Origin: Sulfitobacter litoralis
Lineage (GTDB): Bacteria > Pseudomonadota > Alphaproteobacteria > Rhodobacterales > Rhodobacteraceae
Reading direction: 5' to 3'
Length of the DNA: 64,000 bases
Assembly: GCF_900103185.1 (NCBI RefSeq)
Contig: NZ_FNJD01000002.1
Span: 1-64,000 of the forward strand
The notes beneath the pieces were generated by a model, which saw only the letters and a list, made by a program, of their open reading frames with translations, had not been told where the DNA came from and did not search any database. Numbering within the stretch: position 1 is the first letter of the stretch; each line of letters starts with the position of its first letter. The position numbers and the translations under genes are program-made. This document shows, piece after piece, positions 50,048-56,024 of the stretch.

Positions 50048-50389
50048 ATGCGCCTTGATGATCTTATGATGGCGGGCAAAGATCGGGACGACGACGAAAC
50101 CGATCTGTTGACCAAGACCAAACCAAAGACCAAGCGGCCGCCTTTGTACAAGGTGATGCTGTTGAACGATGATTTCACACCGATGGAGTTTGTGGTGATC
50201 GTTCTTGAACGCTTTTTCGGGCTGAACCACGCCCAGGCCTTCGAGATCATGTTGACCGTGCATAAAAAAGGGCTGGCGGTCGTGGGTGTGTTTAGCCACG
50301 AGATCGCCGAAACCAAGGTCGCGCAAGTGATGGATTTCGCCCGACGTCACCAGCACCCGCTGCAATGCACTATGGAAAAAGAAGAATAA
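50048..50389 (+). CDS. clpS: ATP-dependent Clp protease adaptor ClpS
   Basis: A 113-residue adaptor that delivers N-degron substrates to ClpAP. It has the disordered charged N-terminus ([13 protein letters not shown]) and the core [20 protein letters not shown], with the Asn/Asp residues that bind the N-terminal destabilising residue, and [15 protein letters not shown] 50048 follows AGGAG. clpA is not adjacent. Confidence 0.96.
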
Positions 50390-50392
50390 CAC

Positions 50393-51385
50393 GTGATTGA
50401 TGCACGCCTGCACCTGGCGCTTGACGGCGGTGGTCTTGAGTTGCCCGCTGAAGGGACGATTGCCGTCTTTCAGCCCCCCCGTGACAGTGATTTGCCCGGC
50501 CTTGATAAGGACCGCGTTCAGATCATCCATGGCTTTAAGTCTGATTACGACGCGTGGGCGGCACGGGGCTATGATGTCGTGCGCACGATCAAGGACCGCT
50601 ATGCGGCCTGTATCGTCTGCTTGCCACGCGCCAAGGCCGAAGCCCGCGCTGTCATCGCCGCCGCCTGCGAGGTCTGTGACGGGATCGTTGTAATCGACGG
50701 ACAAAAGACCGACGGTGCCGATAGTGTCCTGCGCGAAATGCGCGACCGGGTGACGGTGCAGGGCCCGATTTCCAAGGCACATGGCAAGATGTTCTGGATC
50801 TCTGAGCCCGCGGCAGAATTCTTTACCGATTGGCGTCAGGGCCCCGAACTGACAGAGGGCGGTTTTTGGACTGCACCGGGGGTTTTTTCTGCGGATGGCG
50901 TCGATCTGGCGTCTGCGTTGCTGGTCGATGCCTTGCCCGAAAAGCTGGGATCCGAGGTCGCCGATCTGGGGGCCGGTTGGGGCTTTTTGTCGGCGCACGC
51001 GCTGACACGGCCGGCTATCAAAAACCTATATGTCGTTGAGGCAGGGCATCTGGCGCTTGAATGCGCACGCCGCAATGTCACCGATGACCGCGCGTCTTTT
51101 CATTGGGAGGATGCCACCAGCTGGGAGCCGCCGCACCGGTTGGACGGCGTCATCATGAACCCGCCGTTTCACATCGGACGCGCCGCTGAACCACAAATCG
51201 GACAGGCTTTTGTAGCCACGGCCGCCCGCATTCTGTCGCCTCAAGGCAAACTGTGGATGGTGGCAAACCGTCATCTGCCCTATGAGGCAGAGTTGAAAAC
51301 CCGTTTCGCCCATGTCGAGGAAATCGGCGGCGATGCGCGGTTTAAATTGTTTCACGCGGCACGGCCCTTGCGCAAGCGTCGGTAG
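50393..51385 (+). CDS. RsmC-like class I SAM-dependent methyltransferase
   Basis: A 330-residue methyltransferase similar to RsmC/RlmG, which methylate guanine N2 in rRNA. The C-terminal domain has the SAM loop DLGAGWGFLSA and the catalytic MNPPFHIG motif used by N-methyltransferases; the N-terminal half is the degenerate second methyltransferase-like domain. The start is GTG 50393, only 3 nt after the clpS stop, so the two genes are probably co-transcribed. The target base (G1207 of 16S rRNA in RsmC) is inference. Confidence 0.87.
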   Translation: MIDARLHLALDGGGLELPAEGTIAVFQPPRDSDLPGLDKDRVQIIHGFKSDYDAWAARGYDVVRTIKDRYAACIVCLPRAKAEARAVIAAACEVCDGIVVIDGQKTDGADSVLREMRDRVTVQGPISKAHGKMFWISEPAAEFFTDWRQGPELTEGGFWTAPGVFSADGVDLASALLVDALPEKLGSEVADLGAGWGFLSAHALTRPAIKNLYVVEAGHLALECARRNVTDDRASFHWEDATSWEPPHRLDGVIMNPPFHIGRAAEPQIGQAFVATAARILSPQGKLWMVANRHLPYEAELKTRFAHVEEIGGDARFKLFHAARPLRKRR

Positions 51386-51414: not shown

Positions 51415-52215
51415 ATGTCATTCTCAATCTCTGGCAAGAACGTCATCATCACAGGGGCCGCAAACGGCATCGGCCTGGCGATTGCACGTCAGTTTGCCGA
51501 CAAAGGTGCCAATGTCATGTGCGCCGACATTGACGAGAAAGCGCTGATTGAAGAATTGGGTGATGCTAAGGACGAAGGCAACATCCGCTTTTTCGCGGGC
51601 GATTTGCGGCAACGTTTAACCATTGCGAACCTTGTATCCGCTACCATCGATGCCTTTGACGAGGTCGACGTGCTGGTGAATGCATCGCGGCAGTTTTTGC
51701 CGACGGATGCGTTGGACGGTGACGACACCAGCGTTGAAACCCTGTGGCAGGAAAACGTGATGACCGCGATGCAGCTGACACAGCAGGTCGCAAAGCGCAT
51801 GATCAAACAAGCCGAAGGGCAAGAGGGTGGCGCAGTCGGCAGCATCATCAACCTGAGCTCGACGACCTCGCGGCACACACGGCCCGAGCTGATGGCCTAT
51901 TCCATGGCGGCAGCAGCGCTGGAACAGATGACGCGGTCAATGGCGCTGACCCTGGCGCCGCACCGCATCCGCGTGAACGCCGTCGCCTTCGGGTCGGTGA
52001 TGAGCGGCTCGCTAAAGGCGTCTTGCGCCGAGAACCGTGAATGGCGCGACGACATTCGCAATCACACGCCGCTGGGGCGTATCGCCTCTCCGTCGGAGTT
52101 GGCCGATACGATCCAGTATCTTGCTGCCGACAGTTCAAGCTTTCTGACCGGCGAAGTGATCGTGGTGGACGGGGGGCGGTCCTTGTTGGACGCCGTGGAT
52201 GCGCCGGCACACTAA
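51415..52215 (+). CDS. SDR family protein with a missing catalytic lysine
   Basis: A 266-residue classical-length short-chain dehydrogenase fold. The nucleotide-binding loop TGAANGIG (13-20), D38 and the ending VDGGRS are normal, and N114, S149 and Y162 of the catalytic tetrad are there. However, the residue four after Tyr162 is Ala166 instead of Lys, and the NNAG motif reads VNASR (88-92). Without the lysine ordinary SDR chemistry is unlikely, so it may be a binding or regulatory protein or use an altered mechanism. It is 29 nt after the RsmC-like gene and 26 nt before hemF, suggesting co-transcription with haem synthesis. Confidence 0.85.
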   Translation: MSFSISGKNVIITGAANGIGLAIARQFADKGANVMCADIDEKALIEELGDAKDEGNIRFFAGDLRQRLTIANLVSATIDAFDEVDVLVNASRQFLPTDALDGDDTSVETLWQENVMTAMQLTQQVAKRMIKQAEGQEGGAVGSIINLSSTTSRHTRPELMAYSMAAAALEQMTRSMALTLAPHRIRVNAVAFGSVMSGSLKASCAENREWRDDIRNHTPLGRIASPSELADTIQYLAADSSSFLTGEVIVVDGGRSLLDAVDAPAH

Positions 52216-52241: not shown

Positions 52242-53135
52242 ATGTCCGATGATTTCGAGGCGGAAAGAACCCGCGCCGCTGATTGGTTCCGCAGCCTGCG
52301 CGACCAGATCGTGGAGGCATTTGAGGCGCTGGAGCGTGACCACGCCAATGGGCCTTTGTCAGATGCGGTCGCTGGCACATTCGAGGTAACCCCGACCAAA
52401 CGTAGCAGCGACGATGGCAGCGACGCGGGCGGTGGCCTGATGAGCGTGATGCGCGGCGGGCGCGTGTTCGAGAAAGTCGGCGTCAATGTATCGACAGTTT
52501 TTGGCACATTGGGAGAGCGGGCGCAGGCCGCCATGGCGGCGCGCAAGGGCATCCCCGGCATGACCGAAGACCCGCGGTTCTGGGCATCAGGCATCAGTCT
52601 GGTGGCGCATATGCAAAACCCCCACGCCCCAGCGGTGCACATGAACACCCGCATGTTCTGGACGCCCCATGCCAGCTGGTTTGGCGGTGGGTCCGATTTG
52701 AACCCTTGTATCGAATATGCCGAGGATACGGCGCATTTCCATGCTGTCCAAAAGGCGCATCTGGACCCGCACGGGCGCGATCTTTACCCGCGTCTGAAGG
52801 AATGGGCGGACGAGTACTTCTACATCCCGCACCGTCACCGCGCACGCGGGGTGGGGGGGATATTTATGGATGATCACGCAACAGGGGATTGGGAGGCCGA
52901 CTTTGCCCTGACCCAAGACATTGGTCGCGCGTTCCTGCCTGCCTATTTGCCGCTGGTGCAACAGCGGATCACGCAAGACTGGTCGGACGCCGACAAAGAC
53001 GCGCAACTGGTGCATCGCGGACTTTATGCGGAATATAACCTTGTTTATGACCGCGGCACAAAATTCGGGCTGGAAACCGGCCATGATGCCAATGCGGTTC
53101 TTATGAGCCTGCCACCCTTGGCGAAGTGGGTGTAG
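52242..53135 (+). CDS. hemF: Oxygen-dependent coproporphyrinogen III oxidase
   Basis: A 297-residue enzyme that decarboxylates two propionates of coproporphyrinogen III with O2 to give protoporphyrinogen IX. Conserved blocks are GVNVSTVFG, HMNTRMFWT, WFGGGSDLNPC and YFYIPHRHRARGVGGIFMDD, then VYDRGTKFGLETG. ATG 52242 follows GAAAGG-like sequence; the frame up to 52041 is a shadow over the SDR. A strong terminator follows. Confidence 0.97.
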   Translation: MSDDFEAERTRAADWFRSLRDQIVEAFEALERDHANGPLSDAVAGTFEVTPTKRSSDDGSDAGGGLMSVMRGGRVFEKVGVNVSTVFGTLGERAQAAMAARKGIPGMTEDPRFWASGISLVAHMQNPHAPAVHMNTRMFWTPHASWFGGGSDLNPCIEYAEDTAHFHAVQKAHLDPHGRDLYPRLKEWADEYFYIPHRHRARGVGGIFMDDHATGDWEADFALTQDIGRAFLPAYLPLVQQRITQDWSDADKDAQLVHRGLYAEYNLVYDRGTKFGLETGHDANAVLMSLPPLAKWV

Positions 53136-53191
53136 GGGGGCCAGCCCCCGCCCTGCGGGCTCCGCCGGGATTTGAGCCATCTCGAATAAAT

Positions 53192-53224
53192 AGGCCCCCT
53201 ACTGTGCAAGTAGGGGGCCTTTTC
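53192..53224 (+). terminator. Intrinsic terminator after hemF
   Basis: An 11-bp stem AGGCCCCCTAC / GTAGGGGGCCT with a 7-nt loop is followed by TTT and C. It lies between convergent hemF and the fasciclin gene, 19 nt from the latter's stop, and could serve both. Confidence 0.92.
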
Positions 53225-53242
53225 GGTCAGTTTGGTGTCAGA

Positions 53243-53809
53243 TTATTGCTTTGGCAGCATCACGCCATCGATCACGTGGATCACGCCGTTCGACTGTTTA
53301 ACGTCTGCAATGGTCACAAACGCCGCGTTTCCGTTTTCATCGGCCAGCATCATGCGGCCGTCGTCAGCATAGGATGCTTGCAGTGTGCAGCCACCCAGCG
53401 TGGGTACGGGGTGCTCGCCGCCGTCATCCTTGATCATGCCTTGCAAGGCTTCGGCCATTACAGCTTTGCCGACCACGTGGCAGGTCAGGACTTCGGTCAG
53501 TTGGTCTTTGTTTTCGGGCTTCAGCAGGTTCTCAACGGCACCAGCGTCAAGACGGTCGAAACCGGCGTTGGTGGGGGCGAATACGGTAAAGGGGCCTTCG
53601 CCGGACAGGGTTTCGACCAGACCGGCTGCTTTTACGGCGGCAACCAATGTGGTGTGGTCGGCAGAGTTCACGGCGTTTTCAACGATGTTTTTTTCGGCAA
53701 ACATCTCGGCGCCACCAACCATCGGGTTTTTCATCTCTTCAGCGAACGCCGCGCCCGCAGTCAGGGCCAGAGCTGCGGTTGCTGTCATCATTTTCTTGGC
53801 GAAAGTCAT
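53243..53809 (-). CDS. Secreted fasciclin (FAS1) domain protein
   Basis: A 188-residue exported protein: a signal peptide of about 23 residues (MTFAKKMMTATAALALTAGA, cleaved near AFAEE) and one FAS1 domain with the H1-type block TLVAAVKAAGLVETLSGEGP, FTVFAPTNAGFDRL and the H2-type ending NGVIHVIDGVMLP. FAS1 domains mediate adhesion. It is a single gene convergent with hemF. A 17-bp inverted repeat sits in its promoter region. Confidence 0.94.
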   Translation of the reverse strand: MTFAKKMMTATAALALTAGAAFAEEMKNPMVGGAEMFAEKNIVENAVNSADHTTLVAAVKAAGLVETLSGEGPFTVFAPTNAGFDRLDAGAVENLLKPENKDQLTEVLTCHVVGKAVMAEALQGMIKDDGGEHPVPTLGGCTLQASYADDGRMMLADENGNAAFVTIADVKQSNGVIHVIDGVMLPKQ

Positions 53810-53832
53810 GGTGTTCTCCTGGGTTTATATCG

Positions 53833-53849
53833 TGATCAGTTGCTGATCA
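53833..53849. promoter_or_regulatory. 17-bp inverted repeat upstream of the fasciclin gene
   Basis: TGATCAG-TTG-CTGATCA is a perfect inverted repeat with 7-bp arms, centred about 32 nt before the fasciclin start codon, overlapping the likely leader. It may be a regulator operator or a short leader hairpin; no matching regulator is identified. Confidence 0.5.
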
Positions 53850-53911
53850 TGACGGAGTAACGCGCCCATGCGTTGCTTAGTTTCAAACGCCGTGTGAAAT
53901 AAGTTTCGATC

Positions 53912-54865
53912 TTACCCTTTGGTGTGCCAGTCAAAGAATCCGGGGCCTGCTTGCGCCAATAGGTCTTGAGCAAGATCGACACCCATCAGGCCGCCGTCTG
54001 AGATAGGGCCACTGCGTTCCCCGCTCAGCGCCTCTGATCCGTCGGGGCGCAGCACTTCGCCGCGCAGGTGCAGCGTATCACCGTCAAGCGTCGCGAGCCC
54101 GGCAATCGGCGTTTCGCACGACCCGTCGAGTGTCAGCAGGAAGGCGCGTTCCGCCGCGAGCCGTTGTCCGGTGGGGGTGTCGTGGATCGCGGCGAGCATG
54201 GCTTCGGTGTCAATATCACCGGCGCGGCGTTCGATGCCAATCGCCCCTTGCGCGACAGCGGGCAGCATCAGCGTATCGTCGATCGGGGTGGCGGGGACGT
54301 GCTGCATGCCCAACCGGTTCAGGCCGGCCACCGCAAGGAAGGTGCATTCGGCCTTGCCATCGGCGAGCTTTTTCAGACGGGTTTGCACGTTGCCGCGGAA
54401 TTCGACGACTTGCAGGTCGGGGCGCTGGTGCAACAGCTGCGCGCGGCGGCGCAGGCTGGAGGTGCCGACAACCGCGCCTTGGGCCAATTGATCCAGCGCA
54501 GAGAGCGTCGGTGCAACAAAGGCATCGCGGGGGTCTTCGCGGGGCAGATAGGTGTCGAGCAACAAGCCCCCCGGCTGGATCGTCGGCATGTCTTTCATCG
54601 AATGAACGGCGATGTCGATTTTGCCCGCCAGCAGGTCCTCTTCGATCTCGCGCGTAAACAGGCCCTTGCCGCCGATATCCTTGAGCGGGCGATCCTGTAT
54701 GATATCGCCGGTCACCTTTATCACCACGATTTCGAAAGCCGCTTGCGGGATTTCAAAAGCGGCAGCCAGACGGGCGCGGGTTTCATAGGCCTGGGCCATC
54801 GCCAAAGGCGAGCCGCGGGTACCTATGCGCATAGGATTTTCGGGGGTGGGCAGGTTCACAGTCAT
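53912..54865 (-). CDS. hemC: Hydroxymethylbilane synthase (porphobilinogen deaminase)
   Basis: A 317-residue enzyme that polymerises four porphobilinogens to hydroxymethylbilane. It has RIGTRGSPLAMAQA, the KDIGGKGLFTREIEE loop, AVHSMKDMPT, GTSSLRRRAQL and, in the C-terminal domain, DGSCETPIA with Cys250, the attachment site of the dipyrromethane cofactor. It is divergent from hemE with about 109 nt between them. Confidence 0.97.
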   Translation of the reverse strand: MTVNLPTPENPMRIGTRGSPLAMAQAYETRARLAAAFEIPQAAFEIVVIKVTGDIIQDRPLKDIGGKGLFTREIEEDLLAGKIDIAVHSMKDMPTIQPGGLLLDTYLPREDPRDAFVAPTLSALDQLAQGAVVGTSSLRRRAQLLHQRPDLQVVEFRGNVQTRLKKLADGKAECTFLAVAGLNRLGMQHVPATPIDDTLMLPAVAQGAIGIERRAGDIDTEAMLAAIHDTPTGQRLAAERAFLLTLDGSCETPIAGLATLDGDTLHLRGEVLRPDGSEALSGERSGPISDGGLMGVDLAQDLLAQAGPGFFDWHTKG

Positions 54866-54974
54866 GGCCCTTCTTTAGGGGGGCCGATCTGATCTGACAA
54901 GCGGTGCCATTGCCTTGACATCGGGGCGCTACATCTTGACCTAAGACAAAACCTTTGAAGAGTAGGAAACCCAG

Positions 54975-56024
54975 ATGCCGCAGACCGATACGCAAAGCAA
55001 AACCATTCTGCGTTCATTGGCAGGAGAGACGTTGCCGGTGCCACCAATCTGGATGATGCGGCAGGCGGGTCGCTATCTGCCAGAGTATAAGGCGACAAGG
55101 GCGCAGGCGGGGGATTTCCTATCGCTGTGCTATAATCCTGATCTTGCGACAGAGGTCACCTTGCAGCCGATCCGTCGTTACGGGTTTGACGCGGCGATCC
55201 TGTTTGCGGATATTTTGCTTGTACCACAAGCGCTTGGCGCGGATCTGTGGTTTGTCACTGGCGAAGGGCCGCGCCTGTCGACTGTCACCACGCAGGCGGA
55301 TTTCGACAAGCTGCGGCCCGTGGGTGATATTCACGAGACGTTGAACCCGATCTATCAGACGGTGCGTAACCTTACCGCGGCGCTGCCGCGGGAGACGACG
55401 TTGATCGGCTTTGCCGGCGCGCCCTGGACCGTGGCGACCTATATGATTGCAGGGCAGGGGACCAAGGATCAGGGGCCAGCCCATCTGCTGCGCACGCAAG
55501 ATAACGCGCTTTTTGAAAAGCTTCTGGACCTGATTACCAAGGCAACCATCGAATATATGTCTGCGCAAATTGCCGCAGGGGCCGAGGTGATGAAGATTTT
55601 CGACAGCTGGGCGGGATCGTTGCCCGGCGATGCGTTCGAGAAATACGCGGTCGCGCCGGCCCGCGAGATCACGCAAGAACTGAAGAAGCGGCACCCCGGT
55701 ATTCCGATCATCGGTTTCCCGCGCGAGGCAGGAGATAAATACATCGGGTTTGCCAAGGCAACGGGCGTGGATTGTGTGGCGCTGGATAACTCTGTCTCGG
55801 CGGATTGGGCCGCGCAGAATGTGCAAGTTGACGGCTGTGTGCAGGGCAATCTTGCATCGTCCCATATGGTCACGGGCGGGCAGGCGCTGGTGGACGATAC
55901 GCGCCAGATCGTCAAAGCCTTTTCCAAGGGGCCGCATATCTTTAACCTTGGCCACGGGATCACGCCGGATGCCGATCCTGACAACGTGCAGCGCATGATC
56001 GATACGGTACGCGAAGGCGAATAA
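54975..56024 (+). CDS. hemE: Uroporphyrinogen decarboxylase
   Basis: A 349-residue enzyme that decarboxylates the acetates of uroporphyrinogen III to coproporphyrinogen III, directing tetrapyrroles to haem. The N-terminal signature is [16 protein letters not shown] and a second signature is [16 protein letters not shown]; a catalytic aspartate follows [19 protein letters not shown] 54975 is preceded by AAGAGTAGGAAA. Uroporphyrinogen III is the branch point with CobA, so this gene competes with the cobalamin island for substrate. Confidence 0.97.

Follow-up and report, generated by a model that had tools for sequence, protein, structure and literature searches.

A short-chain dehydrogenase-like protein of Rhodobacteraceae without the catalytic lysine is probably a helper or sensor rather than an enzyme

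What is the role of a protein that has the architecture of a short-chain dehydrogenase/reductase (SDR) and lacks the lysine on which the proton relay of these enzymes depends? The question is raised by a gene directly upstream of hemF in a stretch of 64,000 nucleotides from Sulfitobacter litoralis, which is referred to as the window. The original prediction proposed that the protein has kept dinucleotide binding and may serve as a redox-state sensor or scaffold, and its operon-like position before hemF suggested a role in haem synthesis. The genes of this part of the window are the following:

50048 to 50389, plus strand: clpS (Pfam ClpS, 1.5e-34; synteny)
50393 to 51385, plus strand: RsmC-like methyltransferase with an MTS domain (Pfam MTS, 1.2e-44), immediately upstream of the SDR gene; the name rsmC is assigned here
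51415 to 52215, plus strand: SDR gene without the lysine (K-less), 266 amino acids with no internal stop (Pfam match and motifs)
52242 to 53135, plus strand: hemF, coproporphyrinogen III oxidase (Pfam Coprogen_oxidas, 1.9e-86 on a longer reading frame from 52041)

The start of hemF at 52242 is based on alignments of orthologues that reach residue 1. The SDR gene follows the methyltransferase gene after 29 bp and its stop lies 26 bp before hemF, which bears out the operon-like arrangement. A scan for promoters and terminators between 49900 and 53300 gave nothing usable, with two promoter-like and five terminator-like signals compared to means of 1.3 and 3.9 in shuffled sequence. Within 4 kb (52242-56024), the window harbors hemF, a hemC-like frame (53912-54865, minus strand) and a hemE-like frame (54975-56024, plus strand), the latter two named from reading the sequence.

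According to its Pfam matches, its cofactor loop and its predicted model, the window protein belongs to the classical SDR fold family. The adh_short_C2 model matches residues 14-254 (E 1.9e-49; 168.8 bits versus a cut-off of 27) and adh_short residues 8-201 (E 1e-36). The predicted structure is a classical SDR (pLDDT 82.7, pTM 0.85) with a pLDDT of at least 70 in 223 of 266 residues; block means drop to 65-79 around residues 191-230, and the model is weakest at the C-terminus, where the last 13 residues (254-266) are below 50. Its comparison with the PDB retrieved 50 SDR entries with Z scores of 29.8-31.6, the mitochondrial RNase Z complex 8rr1 being among them, and in a profile search of PDB sequences the 7-alpha-hydroxysteroid dehydrogenases rank first. 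The region of the YxxxK motif reads L159-M-A-Y162-S-M-A-A166, with the codons TAT TCC ATG GCG GCA for YSMAA, and residues 86-92 are VLVNASR, thus turning the NNAG site into N89-A-S-R92. The cofactor loop T13-G-A-A-N-G-I-G20 (TGxxxGxG) is intact, as are D38, N114 and S149. The translation accordingly agrees with the original prediction in all three motifs, namely YSMAA (Tyr162, Ala166) for YxxxK, VNASR for NNAG and an unaltered cofactor loop.

The best NCBIfam model for the three K-less proteins and the two lysine-bearing relatives tested is PRK07231 (NF005559, the "glucose 1-dehydrogenase" subfamily), and the fold is the same. However, the window protein scores 202.2 bits and thus falls short of the curated cut-off of 215 by 13, and two other K-less proteins also remain below it (196.7 and 200.7 bits), whereas the lysine-bearing relatives L148 and L153 exceed it (252.2 and 245.2 bits). 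The K-less proteins further differ from the PRK07231 type in that Lys166, NNAG, Pro192 and Thr197 have been lost or changed.

An orthologue is present in 373 of 394 sampled Rhodobacteraceae genomes (E<=1e-45), with one match per listed genome; a looser cut-off with the profile returned two or three matches in some genomes, so that the gene may not be strictly single-copy. A sample of 196 genomes drawn order-wide proved to consist of Rhodobacteraceae throughout, and 193 of them matched the SDR profile at E<=1e-50, one (G150) barely. Our alignment comprises 212 K-less rows with 209 distinct sequences and covers by handle 175 of the 373 matched genomes, leaving 198 unaligned. It was assembled from the 30 closest, 30 weaker and 20 intermediate matches, 30 more with loci, 60 fetched stretches, ten matches of the order-wide and one of the class-wide search, and 31 contigs of public genomes; the loci on these contigs were found by peptide patterns including PELMAYSM, and this part is therefore biased toward close relatives.

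Neither lysine nor arginine occurs at position 166 in any of the 209 distinct orthologues. Serine (62), cysteine (52), threonine (47) and alanine (35) prevail, and the remaining 13 sequences have Asn (5), Met (4), Gly (2), His (1) or Ile (1). Lysine is found in all 22 comparison SDRs, i.e. the top protein hits of 20 family genomes that have no orthologue (one per genome), one other SDR of the same genome and one from Streptomyces. The original prediction had proposed to examine the conservation of Ala166: the lack of a basic residue holds throughout, but alanine itself is confined to the 35 orthologues mentioned. It had also named orthologues with the lysine, a mutation of a single strain or a sequencing error as the findings that would speak against it; no orthologue with lysine at 166 was encountered, which rules out the latter two explanations as well. 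A pseudogene is ruled out by the open frames among the orthologues together with purifying selection.

The nucleotide-binding loop of the protein is kept, as are several further residues. The loop glycines G14, G18 and G20 are present in 209, 207 and 209 of the 209 orthologues, D38 and N89 in 203 each, N114 in 207 and S149 in 197; position 90 is Ala in 156 and Gly in 44. Close to the C-terminus, R255 (208/209) and D259 (205/209) are retained. The YxxxK and NNAG motifs of catalytic SDRs are absent from the K-less orthologues, while the serine and asparagine of the N-S-Y-K tetrad remain in most of them. Position 162 is Tyr in 175 sequences and otherwise Phe (27), Leu (4), His, Val or Ala (one each). 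The loss of Tyr162 in 34 of 209 orthologues escaped the original prediction, as did the fate of Pro192 of the PG motif, which is kept in 6 of 209 K-less orthologues versus all 26 class-level relatives. Conversely, R92 is present in 198 of 209 K-less orthologues and in none of these 26 relatives.

The relatives stem from a class-wide profile search of 289 genomes, 48 of which gave a match at E<=1e-55, four of them in the family of the window; of the 52 matches listed for other families, we examined the best 26. Lysine is found at position 166 in 24 of them and glutamine in two (L151, L152). The latter, which belong to one genus (family f123, genus g515), represent a second loss of the lysine and are linked to trcR; L151 has in addition Phe for Tyr. 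Two further relatives, L159 and L160, retain Lys166 and have Phe at the catalytic Tyr, and of these two, trcR was detected next to L159 alone.

A quick maximum-likelihood tree of 81 rows, calculated without columns 92, 162 and 166, places the 41 K-less rows on one side of a branch with an SH-aLRT of 98, and on this tree the K-less proteins are one clade; the support of the root split is 78, long branches lead to several comparison rows, and two long branches meet. The distribution of lysine requires two changes in all, a single one of which accounts for the K-less clade. Since other SDRs have the lysine, it would have been lost rather than gained. The relatives do not form one group, because three lysine-bearing SDRs of family genomes (L094, L095, L099) fall among them; in the two of these genomes that were searched (G028, G077), trcR and the lysine-bearing SDR are on different contigs. 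Tyr162 has changed at least seven times within the K-less rows and ten times over all rows, and it is thus, judging from the alignment, dispensable among K-less members. The presence of Arg92 requires four changes within the K-less rows. A deep K-less clade (L080, L089, L092, L093) lacks Arg92 and has Cys166 together with Phe or His at position 162, which documents that a protein can be K-less without having Arg92.

The conservation of the gene neighborhood was compared in 125 synteny rows, 96 closer (at least 55% identity) and 29 diverged, with a few genomes counted twice, and in 30 further rows. As upstream neighbor of the SDR gene, clpS occurs in 96/96 closer, 29/30 further and 14/29 diverged rows and rsmC in 95/96, 29/30 and 12/29, respectively. 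L064, L074 and L132 have clpS at a distance of 41-186 bases before the SDR gene, and nothing RsmC-like matched in the space between the two. The linkage with hemF is more restricted: 83 of the 96 closer rows and 18 of the 30 further ones have it downstream in the same orientation, and none of the 29 diverged K-less rows does, although it could sit beyond the flanks of 1.5-3 kb in some of these rows. The congener L008 has no hemF next to its SDR gene, and the 15 K-less loci with wide flanks (up to about 5 kb) do not contain it either. Among 30 weaker genomes, hemF is adjacent to the SDR gene in G157 and on the opposite strand at a distance of 2.2 kb in G314; it resides elsewhere on the same contig in four (G014, G209, G074, G093) and on another contig in 21, and three gave no match.

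A different neighbor, trcR, is located within 1.5 kb of the SDR gene in 17 of 26 relatives (TrcR corresponds to PF06242 in L148, L151 and L153), in many cases together with a gene for a quinone-oxidoreductase-like protein or an acyl-CoA ligase. PRK07231-type relatives from other alphaproteobacterial families share this neighbor with some K-less copies: trcR is present in the flanks of 20 of 209 K-less rows, whose flanks often span only 0.5 kb, and in five of the 15 wide loci (L190, L191, L194, L195, L197), and some diverged K-less copies adjoin trcR or an acyl-CoA ligase gene. Ten rows (L067-L071, L073, L074, L076, L077, L079) combine clpS upstream with trcR. In the genome of the window, trcR is located on a different contig from the SDR gene. 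The trcR and SDR genes converge in L148, L151 and L153, which argues against an operon, and because no neighboring gene is constant, no partner can be named from the neighborhood. The order of neighbors would have proceeded from the trcR locus via clpS-rsmC-SDR-trcR to clpS-rsmC-SDR-hemF. Taken together, tree and gene order suggest that the loss of the lysine appears to be older than the linkage with hemF, thereby speaking against a haem-specific role.

The SDR gene is under purifying selection, as estimated from sequence comparison with 11 relatives: dN/dS (Nei-Gojobori) is 0.012-0.104 in the ten pairs that gave a number and thus within the range of the neighbors clpS (0.008-0.108) and rsmC (0.050-0.132; 11 pairs each) and hemF (0.049-0.080; eight pairs), dS being near saturation so that only the order of magnitude counts. 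Nevertheless, 21 of the 394 family genomes lack a match at E<=1e-45, which indicates that the SDR gene can be spared under certain conditions. Twenty of them were searched again, the 21st not being among the genomes listed; the proteins that match best in these 20 are different SDRs, all with Lys at 166. An RsmC-like gene is present in 15 and hemF in 19 of these 20 genomes, and in ten of them rsmC is followed by hemF on the same strand with a gap of 503-592 bases in nine cases and 905 in one, and no SDR similarity was found in the locus at E<=1. The SDR gene would thus have been lost cleanly now and then. In these ten loci (L312-L314, L316-L322), the gap contains an opposite-strand frame with a lipoprotein-like start (ACGTPQEQC-like), as read by eye.

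The distribution of the gene bears directly on the alternatives that have to be weighed. That the protein senses the redox state for HemF, or holds it as a scaffold, is favored by the frequent location of hemF downstream on the same strand (83/96 and 18/30 rows) and by the gap of 26 bp in the window. This role for the protein, which the original prediction had derived from the position of the gene, is very improbable given the missing hemF in the diverged rows, the wide loci and L008, the persistence of hemF in 19 of 20 genomes that lack the SDR gene, including the ten with a retained rsmC-hemF arrangement, and the apparently greater age of the lysine loss. An enzyme with a changed chemistry that employs bound NAD or Arg92, which occupies the place of the Gly in NNAG, for example a lyase, an isomerase or a dehalogenase-like enzyme, seems quite unlikely. 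Such unusual chemistry is conceivable because Tyr162, Ser149 and Asn114 remain in most members (175, 197 and 207 of 209, with Arg92 in 198), and SDR-fold enzymes with S-Y-R sites are known. Those of the halohydrin-dehalogenase type have Arg at the position of the lysine, which none of the 209 K-less orthologues has, and the alternative also has to cope with the repeated changes of Tyr162, the absence of Arg92 from 11 orthologues including the deep clade, and a variable residue 166 that is mostly small.

A serious rival, albeit a rather unlikely one, is that the protein forms the inactive part of a hetero-oligomeric dehydrogenase, in which it would stabilize or gate an active lysine-bearing SDR encoded elsewhere. 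The precedent is the heterotetrameric BbsCD (PDB 7pcs), whose SDR subunits are reported as inactive pseudoenzymes in the title of the study (via PMC10818641). The predicted model matches BbsD (7pcs_B) with a Z score of 31.3, tied with many other SDRs, further SDR matches exist in the same genome, and R255 and D259 near the C-terminus have been kept. However, bbsC and bbsD are named together as the bbsCD genes, while the window gene has no SDR match nearby; the nearest one on its contig is about 136 kb away (C24:188118), hence an active partner is not encoded alongside. Two other systems provide looser parallels. NmrA/HSCARG-type NADP-sensing regulators have a dinucleotide-binding Rossmann fold without dehydrogenase function, but the window protein matches adh_short_C2, adh_short and KR only (Pfam, E<=0.001) and not NmrA. 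HSD10/SDR5C1, a partner of mitochondrial tRNA enzymes, exemplifies an SDR with a role outside dehydrogenation and shares the fold of the window protein; it retains YxxxK, which is lost here, and is an active dehydrogenase.

The explanation that we consider reasonably likely is that of a conserved SDR pseudoenzyme that binds NAD(H) and acts as a structural or redox-sensing partner of another protein. It is favored by the lack of lysine in 209 orthologues, the repeated erosion of the tyrosine, the retention of cofactor loop and Asp38, purifying selection and the origin in one clade. The ancestor would have been a classical PRK07231-like SDR of Alphaproteobacteria, located beside trcR in many relatives, and the proton-relay lysine would have been lost early in the lineage of Rhodobacteraceae, while the Rossmann site for NAD(H) was kept. 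As a rule, an Asp38-type residue favors NAD over NADP. The protein should accordingly still fold as an SDR oligomer and bind NAD(H), whereas hydride transfer on an alcohol or ketone with the assistance of Tyr and Lys would no longer be possible. It would thus function through binding: with the nucleotide in place, it would give structural support or report the redox state to another protein whose gene is not reliably among its neighbors, and its role would not be specific to haem synthesis. Arg92 may replace the positive charge that was lost with Lys166. More tentatively, the whole trcR-linked SDR lineage might have a binding function that is free of hydride transfer, so that catalytic residues keep eroding; the lysine would have been lost in the ancestor of the Rhodobacteraceae clade and separately replaced by Gln in another family, and the tyrosine lost many times. 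The copy of Rhodobacteraceae could then be a family-wide reporter of the NAD(H) state that acts on a partner protein and whose contact with ribose or phosphate has been remodeled by Arg92. No paper on the K-less SDR was found among the search results listed, although one may exist, and the main text of a transposon study of Rhodobacter sphaeroides (PMC5513736) contains nothing on the SDR gene.

The K-less state holds across the sampled Rhodobacteraceae, and the comparative data do not support the haem interpretation. A sensor or scaffold rather than a dehydrogenase is, on this evidence, the most likely class of function. Judged by family models, hundreds of genera (372 of the 393 sampled) would be credited with a dehydrogenase here, but the residues of the K-less SDR make such an activity by the known mechanism unlikely. 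This near-universal dehydrogenase look-alike of Rhodobacteraceae is probably now a non-catalytic helper or sensor. As a putative pseudoenzyme with a retained NAD site in a family with tractable laboratory strains, it would provide a clean test case for the transition from an enzyme to a sensor or scaffold, for which the lysine-bearing relatives with their shared gene neighborhood represent a matched comparison.
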